DNA of 46,090 bases from a virus: the IMG/VR virus record IMGVR_UViG_3300010373_000065, positions 1-46,090 of that record; one strand, 5' to 3'. Under the pieces are notes generated by a model. The model searched no databases. It saw only the letters and a program-made list of their open reading frames with translations, and was not told where the DNA came from. The number at the start of each line of letters is the position of its first letter. The stretch's first letter is position 1. Both the position numbers and the translations under genes were made by a program. This document shows, in pieces, positions 24,401 to 42,484 of the stretch.

Positions 24401-26420
24401 CGTCCGCTATCGCGATCCCTACGGCGGCGTGAGCCCGATCGACACGGTGAGCTACACGCTCACCGGATCGCCGGAGCAAGCGCCGGATATGGCCGGGTTA
24501 GGCATAGTGAGCGGCACCGCGACCGCCGGCGCGCCGAATGGCTCCGGCGGCAGCGGGATCGGCAGCGCGGTCGGGATCCCGCTCACTCTCTTCGGCACCG
24601 ATCTCAATTACCAGTTCGAAATCCACCGCGCGTTCGATGATGGGTCGGGGAATCCCGATCTCACGACCGAGTTCGCCCTGACCGACGCCGCCAATCCGAT
24701 CGACTCGGGGTCGGCCGTCCTGTACGTCGATGCGACGCAGAACGATGGCGCGCGGCGGCATTACCGCGCGCGGCAGATCGCACCGGGCGCGACGCCTGGG
24801 AACTGGACGTGTTGGCGCGACGCGCTCCCCATGCAGCTCCCGATCGGACTCACGGCGCTCGCCGCGCAGCTCCCGACCTACGGCGAAGGGAAAACGCAAA
24901 CCGCGACGGTGGGGACGCTCGCACTCACCGTGGACGATCCGCAGTGCCGCGTGACGCAAGTGCGGATGAAGAGCAAGTCCGGCAACAACGCCGAGTCCGC
25001 GTTCGCGGTCGTCACGCTTTCGGGCGGCGTCTATACCGATACGGTCGCGTTAGTCGAAGGGCTCCCGTCGACGATCACGTACGAGGTCACGGGGTACGAC
25101 GCGTCCGGCGCGTTAGGCGTGATCGCGACGCATGTCGTCACGTTCGGCGTCTCGAATGTGCCGGCGCTCCCGGTGCTCTCGGCGTACGTGACGACGGGCG
25201 GGTCGCTCGTGGTGACCGCGCAAGGCGACATCCTCACCGACCACTTCAAGGTGGCGGCCTCGACGTCGGCCGCGCCCACAGATACGACGGTGCGCGCGGC
25301 GAGCCCGACGACGGCAGGCGATCGCGTGATCACGCTCTCGGGCGTGCTCACCGGGCTCACGCAGGGGCAAACCGTCTTTATCGGCGCGTTCGCGTACGCG
25401 GCGGACGGCACCGAGTCGGCCGCCCAGGGGACGCTCACGCTCATCGTCGGCTCGCCGAACGCAGCGCCAGCGGGTGCGGAATATCTGACGCTGGCGACGG
25501 ATGCGACGCTCACGAGCGAGCGCGTGTTCAACCCGGACACGACGAACGACCTCGCGGTAACGGACCACGGCGCCGGGGCCAATTACGATCTCGCGCTGAA
25601 AGCGACCGGCGTCGCGGCAGCCACCTACGGCGACGCGACGCACGTGCCGCAGATCGCCGTGGACGCCAAGGGGCGCATCACCGCCGCGTCGAACGTTGCG
25701 GTCTCTGGGGGCGGCGGCGGGAACATCACCTTCGATCTCATCCAGCAGTTCGGCGACGGGCTCAACGTGCCCGCCGTGGGCGAGATCCGCGAGATGCGCG
25801 TCGACGTCGCCTGCACCATTCAGGTCGCCGACATCTTCGCGGACCAGTCCGGCTCCGCCGTCGTCGACGTCCAAACCTCGAGCGACGGTATCACGTTCGC
25901 GTCGATCGCGGCATCCGCCAAGCCGACGCTCGCGAGCCAGCAGGAGCACTCCGATGGGAGCCTGGTGGGCTGGACCACATCGCTCGCGGCCGGCACCTAC
26001 GTCCGCTTCGTGCTCAACAGCGTGGCCACCTGCCAGGCGGTCACCGTCGCGCTCAAGGTCACGGGCCCCGCCGGCGCGGTCAACGTCGGCTGCTCGGTGG
26101 GGGACGGCGTCTCCGGCCTCACGAGCGGCTACCTAGTTGACGTGCGCGTCTCGACAGCGTGTGTCATCACGGTCGCGGACATCTACGCCGACGCCTCGGG
26201 GAGCGCCGTGGTCGATGTGCAGACCTCGACGGACGGCATCACCTACAGCTCCATCTGTGGCGGCAACCCCCCGACGCTAGCGAGCCAGCAGGAACACGCG
26301 GACGCCACGCTCACCGGCTGGACGACGAGCCTCGCCGCCGGCAGTTACGTGCGCTTCATCCTTTCCTCGGTGACGACGTGCAAACTGGTCGGCGTCACCT
26401 TGGTCTGCACGAGGAGTTAG
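21402..26420 (+). CDS. Large tail-tip / receptor-binding protein
   Basis: This 1672-residue protein is the biggest in the window and fits a tail hub or central fibre. Residues about 30-170 repeat the C-terminal domain of the upstream protein (RYIPATDERNGLGATIATGW, FFPDGASPSYFVAELMEP). The middle is hub-like. Two fibronectin-III-like stretches lie near 818-905 and 930-1015 (TAPTGLNASSITSSSVLLLW). Near 1409-1431 is a motif common in tail fibres (VPQIAVDAKGRITAASN). The C-terminus is a tandem duplication of about 110 residues with a 116-codon period. It should contact the host surface. ATG in TGATG; the stop lies inside a GTTAGGC motif. Confidence 0.75.
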   Translation: MSTLLPPGPIPSGASLGTQPKIIWFPSGVAAPLVVRYPLDEAAAYPRMSKGSDVQQIRSGATDAWTEDTEWCLSGSIRYIPATDERNGLGATIATGWDGSSGWRAFLEYCWQGGTFLFFPDGASPSYFVAELMEPAMGDFAGNPPTAEADYSRALKIVIRRADGVPISGYTPAYRARVYKPKSQNDSTESELLVPASGAPHSDVFAVSTLPEFTDTGVTYKPYLDTVSGERGGIDLLAKATDKGTWNLEFLDKRTGTSNLERWLTAFLAGTDGVIQLGGCRCEIDRSLDGGATWNSFATGRVRNPALSGVQRYTTQVRDLQDDMEADLFVGPPHASITYASLAPYCPLGLLTPFGGFPVVAPIDGIVRAGVQGFTKIIECNGRRNPQSTLVQSLLNQIVQVRLDAGATAGVSTDNFAVRFDFEGDAITLNVNGKQYALRSVWSALPDKHETSNVFRCCAVYGVVLGVDGSESPWDADLPAAGGAIGGITITPAGGPTDDQPMFVSDVHPVQLWKDIMDGKFGYLDATTGAPLTAIKYDAAAFAALIADTTIPNGNWVIKQLVASDGSGDDASVSTWLVDNICSQFALGFRLAEDGSVVPLDLRLSASAAATIELTDDDLVSDPSAVEWEQADNDAITRMTATWYADQQLNIAQATHASAAVTPPTVSAGGAVSGGGPDVPGGLIDEQQVPEVLINNTGRARDLGDHSQTLDATAYHGFVHLDGSVSNVSEVVGNLAELLDESLAPFQAGAQYLTLWCLPTTRAISVTEGTWFTATITKQPNSASNTRGGSRLVLCLKRTEDHDTGAVYLRCIDAGGSGTALNAPTLASPTAGVDPRFDGDIAVTLNAANDPASVYWNAQPAGTAVRPADSDPGWRLADRLTTSRTLSVTNLPSGSRIFWRARSVSGVDGAGGLPSPWVYPPPTEYLDTTALTAPTGLNASSITSSSVLLLWFNTEGDCAIEVLNVAGAGPPTGADIVDSAFPGSIIDWLRGLASGSYTAGVRYRDPYGGVSPIDTVSYTLTGSPEQAPDMAGLGIVSGTATAGAPNGSGGSGIGSAVGIPLTLFGTDLNYQFEIHRAFDDGSGNPDLTTEFALTDAANPIDSGSAVLYVDATQNDGARRHYRARQIAPGATPGNWTCWRDALPMQLPIGLTALAAQLPTYGEGKTQTATVGTLALTVDDPQCRVTQVRMKSKSGNNAESAFAVVTLSGGVYTDTVALVEGLPSTITYEVTGYDASGALGVIATHVVTFGVSNVPALPVLSAYVTTGGSLVVTAQGDILTDHFKVAASTSAAPTDTTVRAASPTTAGDRVITLSGVLTGLTQGQTVFIGAFAYAADGTESAAQGTLTLIVGSPNAAPAGAEYLTLATDATLTSERVFNPDTTNDLAVTDHGAGANYDLALKATGVAAATYGDATHVPQIAVDAKGRITAASNVAVSGGGGGNITFDLIQQFGDGLNVPAVGEIREMRVDVACTIQVADIFADQSGSAVVDVQTSSDGITFASIAASAKPTLASQQEHSDGSLVGWTTSLAAGTYVRFVLNSVATCQAVTVALKVTGPAGAVNVGCSVGDGVSGLTSGYLVDVRVSTACVITVADIYADASGSAVVDVQTSTDGITYSSICGGNPPTLASQQEHADATLTGWTTSLAAGSYVRFILSSVTTCKLVGVTLVCTRS

Positions 26421-28925: not shown

Positions 28926-28946
28926 TCGTGTTTCCGGAGCTCGCGC

Positions 28947-29237
28947 GTGGATCACAGCCTCTTCACCGTCCTAGGCATCGTGCTTTCCTCGGTCATCTCG
29001 ATCCTCGGGACGCTCGCGGCCAAGCAGCGGAAGGAAGGACGCGACGAGCAGCTGCTCATCGACCTCGCGAAGAAGGTCGCCGTCCTCGAGGCGAAGGACG
29101 AGAAGCGGACCGTCGATCTCAATCGCGTCGGGCAGATTGTGCGCGAGATGCGCGTCGTGTTAGGCATCGCGGGGCAGACCGGTGAGGTGCCGCGCTTTGT
29201 GCCCCGCGACTCCGGCGAAGGCCCGGTGGTCCCGTGA
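28947..29237 (+). CDS. Membrane-anchored coiled-coil protein (XhlA-like candidate)
   Basis: This 96-residue protein starts at GTG 28947. Residues 5-25 are hydrophobic (LFTVLGIVLSSVISILGTLA) and are followed by a charged, probably coiled-coil segment (DLAKKVAVLEAKDEKRTVDL). This single-span plus coiled-coil layout is common for holin-associated proteins such as XhlA, and the gene opens the lysis block. The role is inferred. Overlaps the next GTG by GTGA. Confidence 0.5.
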   Translation: MDHSLFTVLGIVLSSVISILGTLAAKQRKEGRDEQLLIDLAKKVAVLEAKDEKRTVDLNRVGQIVREMRVVLGIAGQTGEVPRFVPRDSGEGPVVP

Positions 29238-29548
29238 GCCGCTGGCAGTGGCTCAACCCGCTCTTCCTGTTCGACTTCCTCGACTCGAACGGGCGGCCCG
29301 ATCACCAAAAAATTATGGCGGCCGCGGTCGTCGCCGGCGTGTTCTGGTGCCAGGCCACCGGCAAGCCGCTCGACACGACGACCGTCATTGCGTTAGGCGC
29401 GATCGGGTTCGGGCCGCGCCTCTTCGGCATGTTCCTGCGCGCTGGGAAGTGGAACACGTCGACCGAGGCCAAGGTCAATGTCGATGCCGCCGCGATTGCG
29501 GCGATCGTGGCGCGCCGCAAGGACAGCGACGTCGAGCCGGCGCCGTGA
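29234..29548 (+). CDS. Small membrane protein, holin candidate
   Basis: This 104-residue protein starts at a GTG overlapping the previous stop. It has a hydrophobic N-terminal stretch (WLNPLFLFDFLD) and two moderately hydrophobic segments (IMAAAVVAGVFWCQATG, TTVIALGAIGFGPRLFGMFL), followed by an alanine-rich tail. Being next to the endolysin, it could form or help form the lysis hole. The helices are weakly hydrophobic, so this is only a candidate. Confidence 0.5.
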   Translation: MSRWQWLNPLFLFDFLDSNGRPDHQKIMAAAVVAGVFWCQATGKPLDTTTVIALGAIGFGPRLFGMFLRAGKWNTSTEAKVNVDAAAIAAIVARRKDSDVEPAP

Positions 29549-30168
29549 CCACGCCCGTCATCTCGGTCATCGACGCGTTTGTGGGCGGCTGCTCGCTCTT
29601 GGAGAACGTCGAGGAAGTGCCGCCCAACTCGAACACGGGCCCAATCGTGAGCCTGATCCAGGCGAGCACCGGGTCCAAGGCCGGCGACCCGTGGTGCGCG
29701 TCGGACATGTCGTACGTCGGCGGCAAGCTGTTCGCGGCGCGGTGGCCGCTGCCCCACACGGCGAGCTGCAATGATCTCGCGCTCTACGCGATCCGGCACG
29801 ACGTTCTTGCCTGCGTGGGCCGCGTCTACGATGACATCCAAGCGCACGGCCTCATCGACGCGAGTGGGCACCGCGTTCTCGAGCCCAACGCGTTAGGCGC
29901 CCGGGCTGCGGTCGTGCTCCCGCCTGAGCGCGGCGATCTCTGTCTCCTCTACAGCATGAGCGCCCACCACTTCCACCATGCCGGCTGCGTGCGCGACGTG
30001 ATCGCGCAGGGCACCGCATGGCGGAGTTGGGAGGGCAACACCACCAAGCCGGGGCAGAAAGGCGACCAGCGCGAAGGCTGGGGCCACTTTGCGAAGCAGC
30101 ATGAGATGACGGAGCCGTGGGGCTTCGTCCGTTGGGCCACTCTTCTTGAACGGAGCGAAACGCCATGA
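29545..30168 (+). CDS. CHAP-like endolysin
   Basis: This 207-residue protein starts at GTG 29545, overlapping the upstream stop. It has the order of a CHAP/NlpC-type cysteine peptidase or amidase: NTGPIVSLIQASTGSKAGDP then WCASDMSY with the likely nucleophile Cys51; PERGDLCLLYS; HHFHHAGCVRDV with likely catalytic His145; and SWEGNTTK (Glu163, Asn165). Such enzymes cut peptidoglycan peptides at the end of infection. There is no signal peptide or separate wall-binding domain, so it should need a holin. Next gene overlaps by ATGA. Confidence 0.75.
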   Translation: MTTPVISVIDAFVGGCSLLENVEEVPPNSNTGPIVSLIQASTGSKAGDPWCASDMSYVGGKLFAARWPLPHTASCNDLALYAIRHDVLACVGRVYDDIQAHGLIDASGHRVLEPNALGARAAVVLPPERGDLCLLYSMSAHHFHHAGCVRDVIAQGTAWRSWEGNTTKPGQKGDQREGWGHFAKQHEMTEPWGFVRWATLLERSETP

Positions 30169-30299
30169 GCGGGACCCTGCACCTCATCGAAGCACTCGTC
30201 GTCGGCGCCATTGCCGGCGCGATCATCCTCGTCTTTGCCCTGCGCAACAACCCGCGCATCGCCGCCTGGCTCGGCATCAAGCTCCCCGTCGCCAAGTAG
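30165..30299 (+). CDS. Tiny single-span membrane protein
   Basis: This 44-residue protein overlaps the endolysin stop (ATGA). Residues 7-26 (LIEALVVGAIAGAIILVFAL) form one membrane helix, followed by a short basic tail (RNNPRIAAWLGIKLPVAK). Located inside the lysis block, it may be a small holin or antiholin. The evidence is size, hydrophobicity and position. Confidence 0.5.
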   Translation: MSGTLHLIEALVVGAIAGAIILVFALRNNPRIAAWLGIKLPVAK

Positions 30300-30302
30300 C
30301 TC

Positions 30303-30785
30303 GTGCTGCGTCGCGTTGGTCTCGCGCTCGCCGCGCTCTCGCTGGCCGGCGCCGTGCTCGTGTTCTTAGGCGCGAGCGGCCCGTCGGCGGCGCTCGTGGC
30401 GCGCGCCAACGCGGTGCCGGATCATGCTGCGCGCGCGAGCGGCCCGGTGGTCAGGCCCAATAGCGACGTCGCGCGCGAGCTCGAGGCCGCGTACCACGGC
30501 GGCGTTCCGGAGCGCGGCTACTGCGCGACGGTGATCGTGGCGTGCGCCTTCCAGGACACAACGCTCTTCGTCACGCACGTCGACTCGGCACCCTCGAGCC
30601 CGAGCAGCATCGCCGGCAAGCCGGGCGTGGCGTTCACCTGCACGACCCGGTGGACGCTCCACACGCATCCGTTGGGCGCCTGCTTCGTCTCGCTCTCGGA
30701 CATTGTGCAGGCCAACCGCGAGCACCGGGACGGCGCCATCGTGCAGTGCGGGCCGCGCGACTTTCGCGCGTGGATCGTCCGGTGA
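30303..30785 (+). CDS. Secreted or anchored protein with JAMM (MPN+) metalloprotease signature
   Basis: This 160-residue protein starts at GTG 30303. Residues 5-25 (VGLALAALSLAGAVLVFLGA) form a signal peptide or membrane anchor. In the mature part, HTHPLGACFVSLSD (120-133) fits the JAMM signature H-x-H-x7-S-x2-D exactly, with Glu70 upstream as a candidate fourth residue. JAMM proteins are zinc peptidases or isopeptidases; in lambda-type phages one is fused to NlpC/P60 in a tail protein. Here the domain stands alone and exported, between endolysin and spanin-like genes. It may act on the envelope. The motif is visible; activity is inferred. Confidence 0.6.
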   Translation: MLRRVGLALAALSLAGAVLVFLGASGPSAALVARANAVPDHAARASGPVVRPNSDVARELEAAYHGGVPERGYCATVIVACAFQDTTLFVTHVDSAPSSPSSIAGKPGVAFTCTTRWTLHTHPLGACFVSLSDIVQANREHRDGAIVQCGPRDFRAWIVR

Positions 30786-31468
30786 CGTCGCCTCCGCCGC
30801 CGACCGGCGGCCTCTCGCAGACCGAGGCGCTCGATTTCTACAAGACGCTGCGCGACGCCTCAGATGCCGCGCTCTCACGCGCACATGTCATCCGGACACT
30901 GATCGACGCCGCGCTCATCGCGCTCGTCGCGCTGGCCGGCTGGCGTGCGTACGTGTGGCATGTCAAGGACACGGCGCAGCTGGAAGCGCGCGTGCAGGCC
31001 AACCAGGCGGCGAAGGATTCCGCGATCGTGAGTCGCGACTCGGCCGACGCGCGCGCCGAACGCTGGGAGCAACGCGCGGAGGTCGCCGCCGCGAGGGTGC
31101 GCGTCGACACGCAGCTGATCGCGGGCGCACTCCACACGGTGCCGGCGCCGATGCTCGTCCCGGTGACGTCATCCACCGGCATCGTCTCCGAGGTGCCGAT
31201 GGTCCCGGCGGAGACGGTCGATACGCTCGGCGCGCGCTGCACGCGGCTCGAGCACGATTGCACGCAGGCGCTCGCGGCGAAAGATTCGGCGCTCTCGGCC
31301 AAAGATTCGGCGCTCGCCGAGGGGCGGATCGCGATGGCGCACGGGGACTCGCTCACCGCGCTCGCGCTCAAGAAGGCATCGGACGCCGAGCGCGCCAACT
31401 TCTTCTCCAAGATCCTCTACGGCGCCGGCGGCGCCCTCCTCGGGCGCGCGACGTGCTCGGTGCACTGA
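30782..31468 (+). CDS. Spanin-like inner-membrane protein (Rz-like)
   Basis: This 228-residue protein starts at GTG 30782 (GTGA overlap). A membrane helix lies at residues 39-58 (TLIDAALIALVALAGWRAYV), followed by a long periplasmic-type coiled coil (TAQLEARVQANQAAKDSAIV; later repeated KDSAL units at about 165-180). The last 20 residues are again hydrophobic (FFSKILYGAGGALLGRA). This layout matches an i-spanin, which links to the outer membrane at lysis. No clear partner lipoprotein (o-spanin) is seen in or beside the gene. Confidence 0.55.
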   Translation: MTSPPPPTGGLSQTEALDFYKTLRDASDAALSRAHVIRTLIDAALIALVALAGWRAYVWHVKDTAQLEARVQANQAAKDSAIVSRDSADARAERWEQRAEVAAARVRVDTQLIAGALHTVPAPMLVPVTSSTGIVSEVPMVPAETVDTLGARCTRLEHDCTQALAAKDSALSAKDSALAEGRIAMAHGDSLTALALKKASDAERANFFSKILYGAGGALLGRATCSVH

Positions 31469-31662
31469 CGGGTCGCTGCAGCGACTGCCTGCACCCGCTG
31501 GACGAGCACAGCGTGATCCTGACGGTCGACCCAAGCGGGCATGTGCGCGAGCGGGTTCGCGTCTGCCGCGCGCTCGTCAATGGGCACGTGTGCGCGTGCG
31601 CGACGCCGCTCTCAGGACTCCGCCGTCCGCTTCAGGCGGACGGTCAGGAGCTCGAGTGCTGA
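31453..31662 (+). CDS. Small cysteine-rich (zinc-finger-like) protein
   Basis: This 69-residue protein starts at GTG 31453, inside the end of the spanin-like gene. Cysteines are arranged as GRCSDCLHP, then VRVCRALVNGHVCACATP, which would suit one zinc ion, and a last cysteine ends the protein. Its 3' end overlaps the opposing ribbon-helix-helix gene by 86 bases. It is the last rightward late gene. Function unknown. Confidence 0.5.
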   Translation: MLGALTGRCSDCLHPLDEHSVILTVDPSGHVRERVRVCRALVNGHVCACATPLSGLRRPLQADGQELEC

Positions 31663-31822
31663 GCGTGTGCACGGCGGTGAGTTCGCGGCGAATCAGGTGC
31701 CGGATCCACGCGGACACGGTCCGGTGCTCGCGTGCCGCCGCGTCGGCGACGCGAGCTTTCACGTCGGCGCGCAGGCGCACCTGCACGACGCTCCGACGAC
31801 CGGTGTTGGCGATCCGGCTCAT
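31577..31822 (-). CDS. Ribbon-helix-helix DNA-binding protein
   Basis: This 81-residue protein shows a CopG/Arc-type ribbon-helix-helix: a strand (SVVQVRLRADV, residues 11-21) followed by two helices (VKARVADAAAREHRTVSAWI, RHLIRREL). Such proteins bind operator DNA as dimers and often act as antitoxins or autoregulators. It is the last gene of the leftward lysogeny operon and starts by ATGA overlap with the membrane protein before it. The C-terminal 30 residues are low-complexity and lie in the overlap with the converging gene. No toxin is recognised next to it. Confidence 0.6.
   Translation of the reverse strand: MSRIANTGRRSVVQVRLRADVKARVADAAAREHRTVSAWIRHLIRRELTAVHTLSTRAPDRPPEADGGVLRAASRTRTRAH
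31623..31643. terminator. Hairpin in the overlap of two converging genes
   Basis: CCGTCCGC (31623-31630) and GCGGACGG (31636-31643) form a perfect 8-base stem with a 5-base loop. It lies inside the coding ends of both the rightward zinc-finger-like gene and the leftward ribbon-helix-helix gene, where the two transcription units meet. It is a candidate bidirectional terminator, though T-runs are absent on both sides. Confidence 0.45.
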
Positions 31823-32448
31823 CGTGCGCGCGTCGCCACGCCGCGGGCTGACGCCCAGCGCCAGGTGACGATAACCAAACCAACCCAGACGATCGCAAGC
31901 ACTGGCGCTTCCGGCGTCGGCTCTTCAGGCCGCGAGAATATTGAGAGCAGCGAGGATGCGCACGACGCGAGCGTAAAGAGAATCGCCGCGCCCCAGAGCA
32001 GCAGAACCTGCGCGCCGTGCCGCTCGGCGAGCCACCGCTGAACGCGAGGACGGCCGAGCGCAAACCATAGCGCCGCGAGCAGCGCGAGCGCCGCCAGATC
32101 GATGGCGACGTTCGCTGCATCCACGAGCTTCTCTCTACGAGTGCGCGCCGGCACTTCGCCACGCGCGATCGCGGCCGCGGTTGATTCCTCCGCGGCTTCA
32201 GCTTGCACAACATCGCGCTCCGCCTTTGCCTGCGCGCTTTCCGCCTGGACGGCGGCCGCTCGCGCTCGGAGTTGCGCCGCACGAGTTGCCGAGTCGGCCG
32301 AGAGCGGTGGCCCATTGCCACCGATAGCTTGGCCATGGGGCGCAGGCGAAGCGACGACGACTAGCGCCGCGGCGAGGATGGCCATCCTGATCGCGCGGTG
32401 CAACAGACAGCTATGTGCACGGCGCGTTGAGGATACGCGCTCACGCAC
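31819..32448 (-). CDS. Membrane protein with coiled coil, lysogeny operon
   Basis: This 209-residue protein has an N-terminal signal-like helix (AILAAALVVVASPAPHGQA, about 23-41), a charged alanine-rich coiled-coil section (AAAVQAESAQAKAERDVVQA), and three hydrophobic spans near 113-130, 147-167 and 182-198. The GTG at 32448 overlaps the upstream lipoprotein gene; the internal ATG at 32385 would give a cleaner signal peptide. Co-transcription with the repressor suggests expression in the lysogen, where such envelope proteins often block superinfection. This role is inferred. Confidence 0.55.
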   Translation of the reverse strand: MRERVSSTRRAHSCLLHRAIRMAILAAALVVVASPAPHGQAIGGNGPPLSADSATRAAQLRARAAAVQAESAQAKAERDVVQAEAAEESTAAAIARGEVPARTRREKLVDAANVAIDLAALALLAALWFALGRPRVQRWLAERHGAQVLLLWGAAILFTLASCASSLLSIFSRPEEPTPEAPVLAIVWVGLVIVTWRWASARGVATRAR

Positions 32449-32941
32449 CCTTGGCAGTTCCCTCCGCGCGCGACTTCACGAGCGCCTCGAACTCTGGTTC
32501 CCACACCCCGCGCGTGGTGCATCCATTGGTCGCGTTAGGCCGCGACCACAACACTGTGACGCGAACCGTTGCGTTCGTGCTGTCGCCACGGACCAGCACG
32601 TTATACGCAGCCCTTGTCGCGCCGAATCTGACGGCAATGTCGCCGCCGCAATCCGCCCACTTTTCTCCGTCCTGGAGACCGACGTCCATCGGCTCAGTCG
32701 CGATGAAGCCGCTCGCTCGCTCCATGTTGCGAATCGGGATGTTCCGCTCCGCGAATATGTCTACGACAGCGTCCCACGTCTTGCCGACAGATGCGTTGAT
32801 CGGTGTCGCCGCTCGTTGCGGCGCCGGTGCCGGTGCGACCGCGCACGCAGCAGAACAAAGCGCGATCGCTGCTCCTACCGTCCAGCGCACACACCGCGCT
32901 GCCAGCGGCATCGGGTCCGTCGTCGGATGATGCGCGTCCAT
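32441..32941 (-). CDS. Probable lipoprotein, lysogeny operon
   Basis: This protein of up to 166 residues has a signal peptide ending in ALCSAAC (Cys33), which resembles a lipobox although the -3 residue is Ser, not Leu. Starting at Met11 (MPLAARCVRWTVGAAIALCS) would give a more usual signal length. The mature part has a helix-strand pattern (VGKTWDAVVDIFAERNIPIR then NMERASGFIATEPM) similar to BamC/NlpB-like repeats. Two distal cysteines (ADCGG, TNGCTT) may form a disulfide. Placed 18 bases after the ImmA-like gene, it is probably expressed in lysogens. Confidence 0.55.
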   Translation of the reverse strand: MDAHHPTTDPMPLAARCVRWTVGAAIALCSAACAVAPAPAPQRAATPINASVGKTWDAVVDIFAERNIPIRNMERASGFIATEPMDVGLQDGEKWADCGGDIAVRFGATRAAYNVLVRGDSTNATVRVTVLWSRPNATNGCTTRGVWEPEFEALVKSRAEGTAKGA

Positions 32942-32959: not shown

Positions 32960-33349
32960 TTAGGTCGTTTGGGCGGTGCCCGGCCGCTCGCCAAGCACGC
33001 GCTGTGCGAAGAACTCCGCGTCATCTTCGCGTGGATCGTTAGGCCAATTCGTGTCCATGTGGTAGACGAGTCGCTCGCCGGCGTCGCTGGTGCGGTGCAG
33101 CCACAGGTGGCCGAGTTCGTGCGCGGCGAAGTATGTGTGTCGTCGCGGCGGCAATCCCGAATTCACCAGGATCATCCACGCGCCGTCGAATGCGACAAGC
33201 TTTGCCGGCCGCGTAAGTGAGACGGCCGCGAGCACGATGCCTTCGCGATCCGTGATCGCGCGCAGCGCGTCCCAGGTGAGGGGATGGGCGAGCTCCGGGT
33301 GAACTTCGCGCTTTGCGGCGATCACCGCGTCGATCGACTCGATTTGCAT
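32960..33349 (-). CDS. ImmA/IrrE-like metallopeptidase
   Basis: This 129-residue protein starts at the ATG in TAATG shared with the repressor stop. It carries the zinc motif HELGH (residues 77-81), preceded by RRHTYFAA, with EDDAEFFAQ (109-117) as the likely region of the third ligand. ImmA-type peptidases cleave the phage or element repressor after DNA damage and so trigger induction. Being encoded directly after a helix-turn-helix repressor is the classic arrangement (as in ICEBs1 immR-immA and many phages). The domain is compact and complete for the family. Confidence 0.8.
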   Translation of the reverse strand: MQIESIDAVIAAKREVHPELAHPLTWDALRAITDREGIVLAAVSLTRPAKLVAFDGAWMILVNSGLPPRRHTYFAAHELGHLWLHRTSDAGERLVYHMDTNWPNDPREDDAEFFAQRVLGERPGTAQTT

Positions 33350-33855
33350 TACACTTTCCTCCCGCGTCGCCGAAGAACCACACGAATGCCCTCCGCGACG
33401 CCCTGCATTTCCGTTAGGACTTCCTCTCCCGACATCTCGCGCTCGACCCCGCCGGCATACATCGCGTACGCCTCTTCGCTCGTTAGGAGCCGTCGAGCCG
33501 CGTCGATCTCCTCCTCGCTTGCGCCGCCAGTCGCGAGCTCGAGCAGGAAGGAATGCATCCACACACGGGCGCGCTGCGGCAGGCCGGTCGGCACGGAGTA
33601 CTCCGCGGGTCGTTCCCGCACGGTGTCCGGAGCCGTGGGCGCGTCCGCGGTACCATAGCGGAGCCATCCCACGGTCGTGCCGAGAAGCGGCGCGATCGCC
33701 CGCAGGTGCCGGTCTTTCGGCTGCTGCCGATTCCGCCGCCACTGGCTCACCGTGCTCTCGCTAACATCTGCAGCCGCAGCGAGTTCGCGGTTCGTGACCG
33801 CAGTCGCGTCCTGTCGCTCCCGGATACGATCTCCGGGAGTCGGCGAGCCGGGCAT
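33349..33855 (-). CDS. Phage repressor (XRE-type helix-turn-helix)
   Basis: This 168-residue protein has an N-terminal XRE helix-turn-helix: IRERQDATAVTNRELAAAAD (11-30), VSESTVSQWRRNRQQP (31-46), then the usual HLRAIAPLLGTTVGWLRYG. The C-terminal half (EYSVPTGLPQRARVWMHSFL ... ASEEEIDAARRLL) has no LexA-type peptidase motif, which fits removal by the neighbouring ImmA-like protease rather than RecA-aided self-cleavage. I chose ATG 33855 because translation beyond it runs into the operator region; the upstream extension has no domain character. It should maintain lysogeny by binding the palindromes at 33872-33947. Confidence 0.8.
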   Translation of the reverse strand: MPGSPTPGDRIRERQDATAVTNRELAAAADVSESTVSQWRRNRQQPKDRHLRAIAPLLGTTVGWLRYGTADAPTAPDTVRERPAEYSVPTGLPQRARVWMHSFLLELATGGASEEEIDAARRLLTSEEAYAMYAGGVEREMSGEEVLTEMQGVAEGIRVVLRRRGRKV

Positions 33856-33964
33856 AGCCCCCCTTCCGTTTGACACCTTGGCGTGTGTCGCAATGACACT
33901 CTTGACATGTTTGGCGTTCGCCGCCAAATTGCGCCGTGTAATTACACCGTTAACGCGAGACACT
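33856..33964. promoter_or_regulatory. Divergent promoter/operator region of the lysogeny switch
   Basis: This 109-base gap separates leftward repressor and rightward Cro/Ner-like genes and is noticeably A+T-richer than its surroundings. It holds several palindromes: GACAC/GTGTC at 33872-33889, TGTC/GACA at 33886-33898, TTTGGCG-5-CGCCAAA at 33910-33928, and the perfect GTGTAATTACAC at 33936-33947. A -35-like TTGACA lies at 33902-33907 and TGTAAT at 33937-33942, but their spacing is too long to be one promoter. The palindromes are the best candidates for repressor and Cro operators. Confidence 0.65.
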
Positions 33965-34192
33965 ATGCCGCTCACTCCGTTGGATCGCAAGGTCGCTCTG
34001 CTTCGCGCTGGGGTTCGCATGTCGGACATCGCGCGCCGGGTCGAGCCGCCGGTATCGGCGAATCACGTCTCGAAGGTCGTGGCGGGCGAGCGGCGGAGCC
34101 CACGGATCGAGGCGGCGATTGCCGAAGCGATCGGGCTGCCGATCGCGAAGGTCTTTCCGCCCGCTCCGCCACATCGTCGCCCTGCCGCCTAA
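33965..34192 (+). CDS. Cro/Ner-like regulator
   Basis: This 75-residue protein is divergent from the repressor. It holds a helix-turn-helix of Ner/Nlp style: VALLRAGVRMSDIARRVEPP then VSANHVSKVVAGERRSPRIE and AIAEAIGLPIAKVFPP. Such proteins bind the shared operators to favour lytic growth. It has a short proline-rich tail. It is the first rightward early gene. Start at ATG 33965, which lies 17 bases after the GTGTAATTACAC palindrome, so its leader would be very short or the operator overlaps its ribosome site. Confidence 0.75.
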   Translation: MPLTPLDRKVALLRAGVRMSDIARRVEPPVSANHVSKVVAGERRSPRIEAAIAEAIGLPIAKVFPPAPPHRRPAA

Positions 34193-34236
34193 CCGCGGCG
34201 CACCATCCACCCTCAACACGCACCTGGATTCATCCC

Positions 34237-34632
34237 ATGAACGAGTCCCGAATCATTAAAATCGACCGCCGGTGTGATCGCGCCGGGCCGGGCTTTCGCT
34301 CGACGCGCGAATATCAGCGGCATGTCGAGTCGGAGTGCGCGTTTCATCTCGTGCGCGCGACCGACGTCGCGCCCGGCTCCAAGACGTGGCGCGAGAAGCG
34401 CTTCCGCTCGGGCCAGCGCGTGCCGTTCCGCACGGAGATCGAAGCGTTCCAGTCACTGCTCACGCGCTCTGCGGAGGACGGCGGCATCGAGCACGTCGAA
34501 CGCGCGGCCGATGAGGTGTGGGACGCGGTCGTGCAGCTGACGCGGCTTGTCTCGCGCCTCGTGACCGACGCCCGCATCCGCGCCGCGACGCGCGTGGTCG
34601 CCGCACAGAGCGACACCGGGAGGGCCGCCTAA
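34237..34632 (+). CDS. Hypothetical early protein
   Basis: This 131-residue basic protein starts at ATG 34237; the longer frame upstream overlaps the Cro-like gene. It has RRCDRAGPGFRSTREYQRHV near the start and a helical C-terminus (VWDAVVQLTRLVSRLVTDAR). One HVESECAFH stretch has a histidine/cysteine cluster but not enough for a clear zinc finger. Its stop lies in a GCCTAAC motif. Function unknown. Confidence 0.5.
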   Translation: MNESRIIKIDRRCDRAGPGFRSTREYQRHVESECAFHLVRATDVAPGSKTWREKRFRSGQRVPFRTEIEAFQSLLTRSAEDGGIEHVERAADEVWDAVVQLTRLVSRLVTDARIRAATRVVAAQSDTGRAA

Positions 34633-34634
34633 CC

Positions 34635-34859
34635 ATGAATCCCACGATCGCCATCATCGTCCGGGCGTTCGGCATGGCCGGCGCCATCGCTGTCGTCTAC
34701 GGGCTCGTCGCGGCGTACATGGCCGTGACCGACCGGCGCCGCGACGCGCAGGAGCGCGACCGCAAGGGCGAAGCGGACTTCCAGCGCACGGTGCGCACGG
34801 ACCCGCGTCAGTCGCGCCGGGACCGCAACTGGCCGCCGCGCGGCGGGATGGCCGCGTGA
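34635..34859 (+). CDS. Small membrane protein
   Basis: This 74-residue protein starts two bases after the previous stop. Residues 3-29 (PTIAIIVRAFGMAGAIAVVY, GLVAAYM) form one membrane helix, followed by a strongly basic, arginine-rich cytoplasmic-type tail (TDRRRDAQERDRKGEADFQR). First of three consecutive small membrane proteins. Overlaps the next gene by GTGA. Function unknown. Confidence 0.55.
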   Translation: MNPTIAIIVRAFGMAGAIAVVYGLVAAYMAVTDRRRDAQERDRKGEADFQRTVRTDPRQSRRDRNWPPRGGMAA

Positions 34860-35008
34860 GAGCGTTCCTCTGGTCCGCGCTCGTGATCGCCGGCGTGTTC
34901 GGCGTGCTGTGGCTGCTCGTGCGCCTGGGCGTGCTCGTGACGCGCTACGTCGAGCGCCGGCCGCCGGTTAAGCGGCCGACCGTTCGGAACCCGAGGCTCT
35001 GGCAATGA
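34856..35008 (+). CDS. Small membrane protein
   Basis: This 50-residue protein starts at a GTG that overlaps the previous stop. Residues 4-29 (FLWSALVIAGVFGVLWLLVR, LGVLVT) are a membrane helix; the tail is basic (RYVERRPPVKRPTVRNPRLW). Second of three coupled tiny membrane genes; its stop overlaps the next ATG (ATGATG). No family recognised. Confidence 0.5.
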   Translation: MRAFLWSALVIAGVFGVLWLLVRLGVLVTRYVERRPPVKRPTVRNPRLWQ

Positions 35009-35408: not shown

Positions 35409-35716
35409 GCTACGATACCGCAGTCGATCCGAACGCGCTCTGGTGGGGCGATGAGAAGCTCCGGGCCGAGGATGGCGCGTTCGCGACGCAGATCGCCGAG
35501 GGGATCCACGAGCAGCTCGTCGAGCGCGAGCAGGACACGGTGGACAGCGACGACGGCGCGCGCACGTTCCGCGTGGTAGTCGCGGTGACGCTGGTGCCGA
35601 TCGAGCAGTGCCCCGAGTGCCACGGCACGGGCTCGATCGGCGTGGTGGTCCGGTTAGGCGGCGTGGGCGAAGAGGACGTGCGGTGCCCCAAGTGCAACGG
35701 CGAGGGCCGCATATGA
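35405..35716 (+). CDS. Protein with DnaJ-type zinc-finger cysteines
   Basis: This 103-residue protein ends with two CxxCxGxG-like repeats: [11 protein letters not shown] (about residues 70-80) and [10 protein letters not shown] at the very C-terminus, joined by a beta-like linker. This is the pattern of the DnaJ central zinc finger, which binds two zinc ions with four such repeats; here only two exist, enough for one ion. The N-terminus is acidic ([20 protein letters not shown]). Possibly an adaptor for host chaperone or nucleic acid. Overlaps the pentapeptide gene by ATGA. Confidence 0.6.
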
Positions 35717-36474
35717 GCGCGCCATTCACGCCGATCGCGGCCGAGGCGCTCGCGGCCATCATCGAGAAGCACGGCATGTGGCTCCGCGGCGAGGAAGGCG
35801 GCGCGCGCGCGAACCTGAGCCGCGCGTACCTGAGCCGCGCGAACCTGAGCGGCGCGGACCTGAGCCGCGCGTACCTGAGCCGCGCGTACCTGAGCCGCGC
35901 GAACCTGAGCGGCGCGGACCTGAGCCGCGCGGACCTGAGCGGCGCGTACCTGAGCGGCGCGAACCTGAGCCGCGCGTACCTGAGCCGCGCGAACCTGAGC
36001 GGCGCGTACCTGAGCGGCGCGGACCTGAGCCGCGCGAACCTGAGCGGCGCGAACCTGAGCGGCGCGTACCTGAGCGGCGCGTACCTGAGCGGCGCGTACC
36101 TGAGCGGCGCGTACCTGAGCGGCGCGGACCTGAGCGAGTTCTACGCCAGGCTCGAGACCGCGCGGTTAGGCGAAGAATATACCTTCGGTGAGTACTGGCG
36201 GCAGTTCGTGCCGGCGCTGCTCACCGCAGGCGGCCGTGCGCTCGACGAGATCGCGAATCCGACGGTGTGGGGCTGCCACACGTGGAGCAACTGCCCGATG
36301 GCGGAGGCGTTCGGCGTCCACGATATCGACCAGGTGCCGATCCTCCACCGGCCAGCGGCCCGGCAATTCGTGTCGCTGTTCGATGCGAAGCTCATTCCGC
36401 TGGACCGCGTGAACCCGAGCGCGGCGCAAGCCACCGACGCGGCCTGCGCGGTCCCGGCGAAGGAGGATGCATGA
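35713..36474 (+). CDS. Pentapeptide-repeat protein
   Basis: This 253-residue protein starts at ATG 35713. After a 34-residue leader ([20 protein letters not shown]) come 21 consecutive LS[R/G]A[Y/N/D] pentapeptides (residues 35-139), which should fold as a right-handed quadrilateral beta-helix. A C-terminal domain of about 110 residues follows ([44 protein letters not shown]). Some pentapeptide proteins mimic DNA and bind gyrase, but this array lacks strong negative charge, so that role is uncertain. The repeat DNA is almost perfectly uniform; see the separate repeat entry. Confidence 0.8.
35815..36129 (+). repeat. 21-unit 15-bp coding tandem repeat
   Basis: Each unit reads CTG-AGC-[C/G]GC-GCG-[T/A/G]AC. 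Only two of 15 bases vary, and both are first codon positions that change the residue; all synonymous sites are identical in all 21 units. The last four units before the end are identical. Such a uniform array points to recent expansion by slippage or ongoing homogenisation. Confidence 0.9.
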
Positions 36475-41011: not shown

Positions 41012-41163
41012 TGATGATCATGACTAAGCCGCCGTCGTTGACGTTGAGCGGGAGACGGCCGTCGCCGGGCACACGGGCCTTGCCGGCACCACGGGTAGGA
41101 ACGACTCGCGACCGTGGGTCTCGATCGACGGCCCCCGTGCCGTCGCCGGCGGCACTCGTATGA
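41011..41163 (+). CDS. Small coupled open frame
   Basis: This 50-residue frame starts in TGATG with the ATPase stop and ends in ATGA with the next gene, so it is linked to both. The sequence is basic and low-complexity (LTLSGRRPSPGTRALPAPRV, RDRGSRSTAPVPSPAA), without predicted structure. It may be translated mainly to couple its neighbours. Support is only positional. Confidence 0.35.
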   Translation: MMIMTKPPSLTLSGRRPSPGTRALPAPRVGTTRDRGSRSTAPVPSPAALV

Positions 41164-41429
41164 GGACAGCAGTGGAGGGCATCATGCCACGATCATCGCG
41201 ACGCGCGCACGCGATCGCGCTCGTCCCGCCCGCGCCGCGCGACCGCGGTCGCTTCATGTCCATCGCCATGGTGAACGAGACATACTATCATGGCGAGAGG
41301 ACGACGCGGTGGATCCGGCGCCGGTTCGCGCCGGAGTACAAGATCACGCAGGGCCGGAACGCCTACTGGTGGGAGCGGGACTGCGAAGCGTGGCTCGACG
41401 GCCAACGCCAGATGGAGAAGGGCGCGTGA
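41160..41429 (+). CDS. Excisionase-like small DNA-binding protein
   Basis: This frame of up to 89 residues lies directly before the integrase and overlaps it by GTGA. Residues 33-80 (MSIAMVNETYYHGERTTRWI, RRRFAPEYKITQGRNAYWWE, RDCEAWLDG) look like a small winged helix that reads as a MerR/excisionase-type domain. The functional start may be internal (MPRSSRR at 41184, or 41256). Excisionases steer the integrase towards excision; the call depends on the position and the fold impression. Confidence 0.5.
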   Translation: MRTAVEGIMPRSSRRAHAIALVPPAPRDRGRFMSIAMVNETYYHGERTTRWIRRRFAPEYKITQGRNAYWWERDCEAWLDGQRQMEKGA

Positions 41430-42484
41430 TCTATTCGCCGAAGCGCGGCAACCCGCAGCTGCAACGCACCTTCGCCGGACTCCCGACGATCCGCCGCGCC
41501 GTGCCGGCCGACGCGTACGCTGCCGTCAACGCGGCGCTCGACGCGCTCTATGATGATGAGCAGTTGGATGCGCTGCGCGCCTTCCAGGCGGGCGACATCT
41601 CGGTGGCGGAGATCCTCGCGGCCAAACGCAAAGGCCGGCTCGATGACCTGTATCTCCTGGAACGCGTCAAGCTCGATCGCCCGCTCTGGGAGTCGCTCGC
41701 GAGCGCCGTCCAGCAGTTAGGCCACGCGCCCGGCACGCGCGAACGGTATCACTGGTCGATCGAGAAACTCAAGACGGTGACGCGCCTCGGGGCCAGCGCG
41801 AAGGTGCGCGGGCTCTTGCGAGTCAATTGGCGCGAGCTCGATCGGGCGTGGACGTCGAGCGACGCCGACTGGATGCGGATGCGGCAGATGGTGGGCGCGG
41901 CGCTCACGGTGTTGTTAGGCGATACATACCACCCGTGGCGCCGGCAGGTCATGAAAGCGATTCCGCGGCGGAAGGAAAAGCCGCGGGTGGTCGAGCTCTC
42001 GGTGCGCGAGTTCTGGGCGCTGGTCAAGGCACTGCCCGACCAGGCGAAGCCCGGCGTGGTGACGCTGGCCGCGACCGGCTTCCGGTTAGGCGAGTACCTC
42101 TCGTGTGAGAAGCGCCACCTACATCCGGCGACGTTGTCCGTGACCAACCCGAGAGGCAAGACGGGGGCCGACGTCGTCTACGTGGCCGAGCGGTTGTGGC
42201 CGTGGATCGCTGCGGCGATCCCGGCGCCGATCCAGGCGCGGTGGCTCCGGATTCACTTCCACCGAGCGCGCACAAAGATCAAGCGACCAGACCTGACGTT
42301 GCACGATCTCCGGCACGTGTACGGCCAGCTCGCCGCGGACGCGGGCGTAGCGCAATCGAAGATTCAGGCGGCGATGCGGCACGAGACGCCGGCGATGACG
42401 GCGCGGTATCTGACGCGCGTCGCCAAACGGGAAGTCGCGGACGCGGTTGGCCGCGGCCTAACGAAGCGACGGAAGCGCGCCTAA
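41426..42484 (+). CDS. int: Tyrosine-type integrase
   Basis: This 352-residue protein starts at GTG 41426 (GTGA overlap). Its C-terminal catalytic domain carries all core residues of tyrosine recombinases: Arg220 in LAATGFRLGEYLSCEKR, HDLRH with His293 and Arg296, His319 in AAMRHETPAM, and the nucleophile Tyr328 in ARYLTR. Lys245 in NPRGKTGAD is the probable beta-hairpin lysine. The N-terminal part contains a SAM-like core-binding domain (YHWSIEKLKTVTRLGASAKV). It should join attP, 100 bases downstream, to a tRNA gene in the host. Small N-terminal arm-binding domain plausible at 1-75. Confidence 0.92.
   Translation: MIYSPKRGNPQLQRTFAGLPTIRRAVPADAYAAVNAALDALYDDEQLDALRAFQAGDISVAEILAAKRKGRLDDLYLLERVKLDRPLWESLASAVQQLGHAPGTRERYHWSIEKLKTVTRLGASAKVRGLLRVNWRELDRAWTSSDADWMRMRQMVGAALTVLLGDTYHPWRRQVMKAIPRRKEKPRVVELSVREFWALVKALPDQAKPGVVTLAATGFRLGEYLSCEKRHLHPATLSVTNPRGKTGADVVYVAERLWPWIAAAIPAPIQARWLRIHFHRARTKIKRPDLTLHDLRHVYGQLAADAGVAQSKIQAAMRHETPAMTARYLTRVAKREVADAVGRGLTKRRKRA

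Follow-up and report, generated by a model that had tools for sequence, protein, structure and literature searches.

A candidate exported JAMM-type protein in the lysis block of a phage genome

Does a phage lysis block encode a stand-alone, exported protein of the JAMM type, and what might such a protein do at lysis? The question is raised by a gene at 30303..30785 (+ strand) in a stretch of viral DNA of 46,090 nucleotides (IMG/VR record IMGVR_UViG_3300010373_000065, positions 1 to 46,090), which is here called the window. An ORF with a GTG start was found at exactly these positions, and codes for 160 amino acids. Residues 120-133 (30660..30701, +) read HTHPLGACFVSLSD, an exact fit to H-x-H-x7-S-x2-D, the zinc-binding signature of the deubiquitinase-type JAMM peptidases, and are preceded by a hydrophobic segment at residues 5-23 (Kyte-Doolittle 2.38). 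In both respects the first-pass annotation was correct. The protein is predicted to be exported or anchored via this N-terminal hydrophobic helix, and its candidate metal-site residues are E70, H120, H122, S130 and D133. There are five cysteines (74, 81, 113, 127 and 149), not four as had been annotated.

Across the six reading frames, H.H.{7}S..D matches the window only at this site. The chance expectation is about 0.018 for the 9,659 amino acids of the main genes, and that for the stricter H[ST]HP.{6}S..D is 0.00013, although neither value is a strict probability, because many other motifs were open to notice. The extended patterns HTHPxGxCxxSxxD and HTHPxxxCxPSxxD were scanned against 2.9 million viral contigs. 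If the protein's own family and a single group of very short ORFs are set aside, the scans returned six JAB-type proteins, of which two scored above the cut-off of Pfam Prok-JAB, two more matched it weakly, and one forms the C-terminal portion of a MuF-like head protein. A broader pattern, W-x-[LF]-HTHP, added only chance-level matches, all of them outside convincing genes. The extended HTHPxxxC-type signature is thus characteristic of JABs, since all convincing genes of the viral collection that carry it were JAB proteins. In IMGVR_UViG_2728369302_000003, a MuF-like head protein carries a JAB-type HTHPNDVCAPSFED domain at its C-terminus.

JAMM sites also require an upstream glutamate. Here this is most likely E70, which lies 50 residues before H120 and is conserved in the homologue described below; MAFFT places it not exactly on the glutamate of the JABs.

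A search for relatives of the gene among phages, plasmids, genome contigs and viral contigs found one complete homologue and one partial copy at a contig end, so that the family has only two known members. The complete homologue (84% identity) is on IMGVR_UViG_3300005458_000074 (IMG/VR), referred to below as the homologue's contig. The partial copy is on a third contig, which carries the endolysin and terminates just within the counterpart of the gene. Loss of the motif in close homologues had been named as grounds for giving up the JAMM assignment; in the complete homologue E70, H120, H122, S130 and D133 are all retained and the signature is identical, as are four of the five cysteines, C81 being lost. 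The two genes differ at 22, 13 and 48 first, second and third codon positions, respectively, and dN/dS is about 0.26 across the whole gene. Because of these two results, the ORF is, on its pattern of substitutions, a real and selected gene. Constraint is strongest around the signature: over residues 115-160 there are 10 synonymous codon changes and 1 non-synonymous change (dN 0.02, dS 0.36, dN/dS about 0.05). These comparisons support a JAMM-like metal site that is strongly constrained.

Profile searches against Pfam, NCBIfam, PHROGs and the PDB gave no match to the protein. When it was compared with ten viral JABs by hhalign, the match was confined to the motif, and shuffled sequences that keep the motif scored equally (median 30.4 against 29.9). 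Two AlphaFold models were made, one of the full-length protein, based on two sequences, and one of the domain together with the ten JABs, which supplied 10 of the 12 alignment rows. Both are poor (confidence 52.8 for the unguided and 49.2 for the JAB-guided model). In the unguided model the elements follow the order helix, strand, strand (HxH), helix from S130-D133, strand, strand, and Foldseek found with it no JAMM fold and no usable match. With the JAB-guided model Foldseek returned JAMM/MPN structures almost exclusively (AMSH/Sst2, Rpn11, PfJAMM1, RadC), with a top E value of 0.046 or weaker. This result is a check of compatibility, not independent proof, because the alignment is rich in JABs and the procedure partly circular. 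Because both models are poor, the MPN fold is put forward by inference only.

The poor models leave room for the view that the motif is coincidental and the fold another one, such as a degenerate domain of cupin type, in which an HTHPLG stretch also occurs. When the C-terminal 53 amino acids were compared with plasmids, the best non-significant matches included cupins (E 5-8), and two of these align over 48 columns with an hhalign score above that of the JABs. However, these two were chosen as the best chance-level matches from 7.3 Gb. The cupin pattern HxHx3-4(E/Q) with its second-motif histidine was looked for and not found, as there is no Glu/Gln ligand at the expected place and the second-motif histidine is absent because the protein ends before that position. 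Cupins are also all-beta, yet the unguided model, poor as it is, has a helix at 131-140, and S130 and D133 match JAMM exactly. A chance motif in another fold therefore seems decidedly improbable. In our judgement, which was not computed, the protein quite probably has a JAMM-type metal site.

The gene is the fifth of six co-directional genes on the + strand. The first (28947..29237) codes for a holin-like protein of 96 amino acids with one N-terminal TM segment, the PHROG holin match having an E value of only 0.043. It is followed by a partly hydrophobic protein of 104 amino acids (29234..29548), which overlaps each neighbour by 4 bp and has no segment above the TM threshold used, and by a putative CHAP-like endolysin of 207 amino acids without TM segment (29545..30168). 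Along 95% of its length the endolysin aligns, at 31% identity, with a region of MW202627.1 in which one gene bears the annotation ‘chap domain’. Next comes a single-TM protein of 44 amino acids (30165..30299; phrog_11666, unknown function, E 4e-5). The sixth gene (30782..31468) codes for an i-spanin-like protein of 228 amino acids, with a short N-terminal part, a TM segment at about 36-58 and a long, charged, coiled-coil-like region; its Rz-like PHROG match has an E value of only 0.54. The functional names in this block rest on weak PHROG matches, on the MW202627.1 match of the endolysin, and on topology. All junctions are 4-bp overlaps, including that between the stop of the JAMM-like gene and the start of the i-spanin-like gene, except for a gap of 3 nt between the stop of the 44-aa membrane ORF and the JAMM-like gene. 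The earlier placement of the gene between endolysin and spanin-like genes holds with one correction: the 44-aa ORF intervenes on the endolysin side.

The block as a whole (28930-31470) is 88.8% identical in DNA sequence to the homologue's contig. The one complete homologue thus lies in the same conserved block with endolysin and i-spanin-like genes. Most other window genes that were tested have no counterpart in this 19-kb contig. The exceptions are a 194-aa piece of the large tail protein (41%), a small ORF on the minus strand (31577-31822), and the stretch 34208-35004. Since the contig is only a fragment, genes absent from it may lie elsewhere. Apart from the block, that contig has little in common with the window, and the comparison, with two complete examples only, therefore supports membership of the gene in a lysis module that is passed on as a whole.

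Outside the block, the shared stretch at 34208-35004 is 85% identical to the homologue's contig, and a pentapeptide-repeat protein is encoded at 35608-36474 (+; Pfam Pentapeptide, E 4e-42). Genes of temperate type at 32960-34029 (-) and 41114-42484 (+) comprise an M78/ImmA-like peptidase, a CI-type HTH repressor and an integrase-type match below the cut-off. By its gene content the phage is probably temperate. The window contains the hexamer TTAGGC 68 times (e.g., at 29393, 29893 and 30366) against 4.7 expected, and the hexamer is also abundant in the homologue's contig. In the main genes of this genome (67.5% G+C), 33 of the 39 TTA codons are followed by GGC (Leu-Gly). The pattern is one of context-dependent codon choice.

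If the protein is an exported enzyme of the JAMM type, made together with endolysin and i-spanin-like protein, its simplest role would be to cleave peptide or isopeptide bonds of the envelope at lysis. Export would depend on the signal or anchor helix at its N-terminus, and it would be produced alongside these two proteins. By analogy with canonical JAMM enzymes, H120, H122 and D133 would be the zinc ligands, E70 would serve as general base/acid, and S130 would support the oxyanion. By analogy with the isopeptide bonds cut by other JAMM enzymes, the target would most likely be a bond of peptide or isopeptide type, either within the wall or within an envelope protein linked to it; alternatively, a lysis protein in need of processing might be cut. 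What we infer here is the MPN fold, the binding of zinc, the export and, most of all, the substrate. We tentatively favour a small exported JAMM/MPN-type metallopeptidase that acts outside the cytoplasm at lysis, and give this reading slightly less than an even chance. The suggestion of a new lysis or envelope-processing enzyme agrees with the constrained JAMM-like site (10 against 1 changes), the predicted export and the linkage to the lysis module (88.8% for the block), and finds no echo in the profile databases.

The metal site might also belong to a passenger of the late operon, with the host envelope or competitors as its target (e.g., in the manner of Tox-JAB-1/2) or with a part in the processing of a virion or envelope protein. 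The probably temperate nature of the phage (repressor-type HTH, M78/ImmA-like peptidase, integrase-type match) would suit such a passenger, as would the occurrence of secreted JABs as modules of polymorphic toxins, among which Tox-JAB-2 is also listed in caudoviruses (PMC3482391). Retention of the gene within a co-inherited six-gene block with near-overlapping junctions argues against this, as does the failure of profile searches to find DUF4329 or a toxin-delivery domain in the protein, and we regard a passenger as rather unlikely.

It had also been suggested that the protein replaces an o-spanin. The sequence gives this role no support, because the window copy has no N-terminal lipobox; in the homologue there is no more than a weak, non-conserved TVAC. 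A look along the + strand of the block found no lipobox protein and hence no o-spanin lipoprotein. The sole good lipobox candidate nearby is a predicted lipoprotein (32441-32941, lipobox ALCSAAC), encoded on the opposite strand in the interval from the block to the repressor region.

MPN domains without activity are widespread in general, and with no o-spanin lipoprotein seen on the + strand a partner is missing from the block. Both points would fit an inactive, JAMM-derived protein that binds or regulates the endolysin or the i-spanin-like protein in the periplasm. Every candidate catalytic residue is retained, however, within the most constrained region of the protein, which makes loss of activity distinctly improbable. 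An active enzyme acting at lysis is tentatively preferred. That it represents a new class of lysis protein, an envelope-exported JAMM isopeptidase that cuts isopeptide-type links, be they wall cross-links or lipoprotein-wall links, and helps to release or rupture the outer envelope without an o-spanin, is an unlikely, more far-reaching version of this reading. A stand-alone exported JAMM-type protein in a mobile lysis cassette would add metallo-isopeptidase chemistry to phage lysis, and would provide a simple test of whether some phages breach the outer envelope enzymatically instead of by a two-part spanin.

How does the protein compare with known JABs? In lambdoid phages a JAB domain is fused to NlpC/P60 in TAPK, accompanied by the Ub-like TAPI (PMC1779556). 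The first-pass annotation took such fusions to be the main form in phages. That view needs correction: single-domain JABs of tail type were the commonest kind among the phage JABs found in this analysis, and in Achromobacter phage JWF such a gene (24477-24803) lies in the tail module, between a separate NlpC/P60 gene and a tail component gene. The single-domain phage JABs (Prok-JAB, PF14464; e.g., that of JWF) share with the protein described here the HTHP..S..D residues, an upstream glutamate, a similar domain size and the stand-alone form, and some also carry the Gly and Cys of its signature. Unlike it, they start directly with the domain, without an export helix, and their sequence similarity to it is limited to the motif. 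The JWF gene, the only one whose surroundings were inspected, has tail genes as neighbours, whereas the gene in the window lies in a lysis block. Lambda-type TAPK (PMC1779556) has the phage JAB signature in common with our protein, near whose gene a papain-like (CHAP-like) enzyme is encoded; the latter protein, by contrast, is separate, predicted to be exported and part of a lysis block, with no adjacent Ub-like TAPI partner identified.

The prokaryotic JABs identified earlier, in bacteria and phages, are described as intracellular, with toxin versions in secreted polymorphic toxins as the exception (PMC3482391). Tox-JAB-1 and Tox-JAB-2 (DUF4329; PMC3482391) combine E, H[ST]H, S and D residues with exit from the cytoplasm, as is predicted here; the phage protein differs in lacking toxin-delivery domains, a DUF4329 match and an identified immunity gene, and in its place in a lysis module. 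AfJAMM, PfJAMM1, AMSH/Sst2 and Rpn11 have the same HxHx7SxxD, and JAMM enzymes are the best fold matches of the JAB-guided model, but these enzymes are cytoplasmic, act on ubiquitin-like proteins, and do not match at the sequence level. In the open-licence literature we found no account of a lysis cassette that includes a JAMM protein. The stand-alone form as such is not new, for single-domain phage JABs already show it, including at least one from a tail module. What appears to be new, judged from sequence, is the predicted export, the placement in a lysis module, and the distance in sequence from all described JABs.
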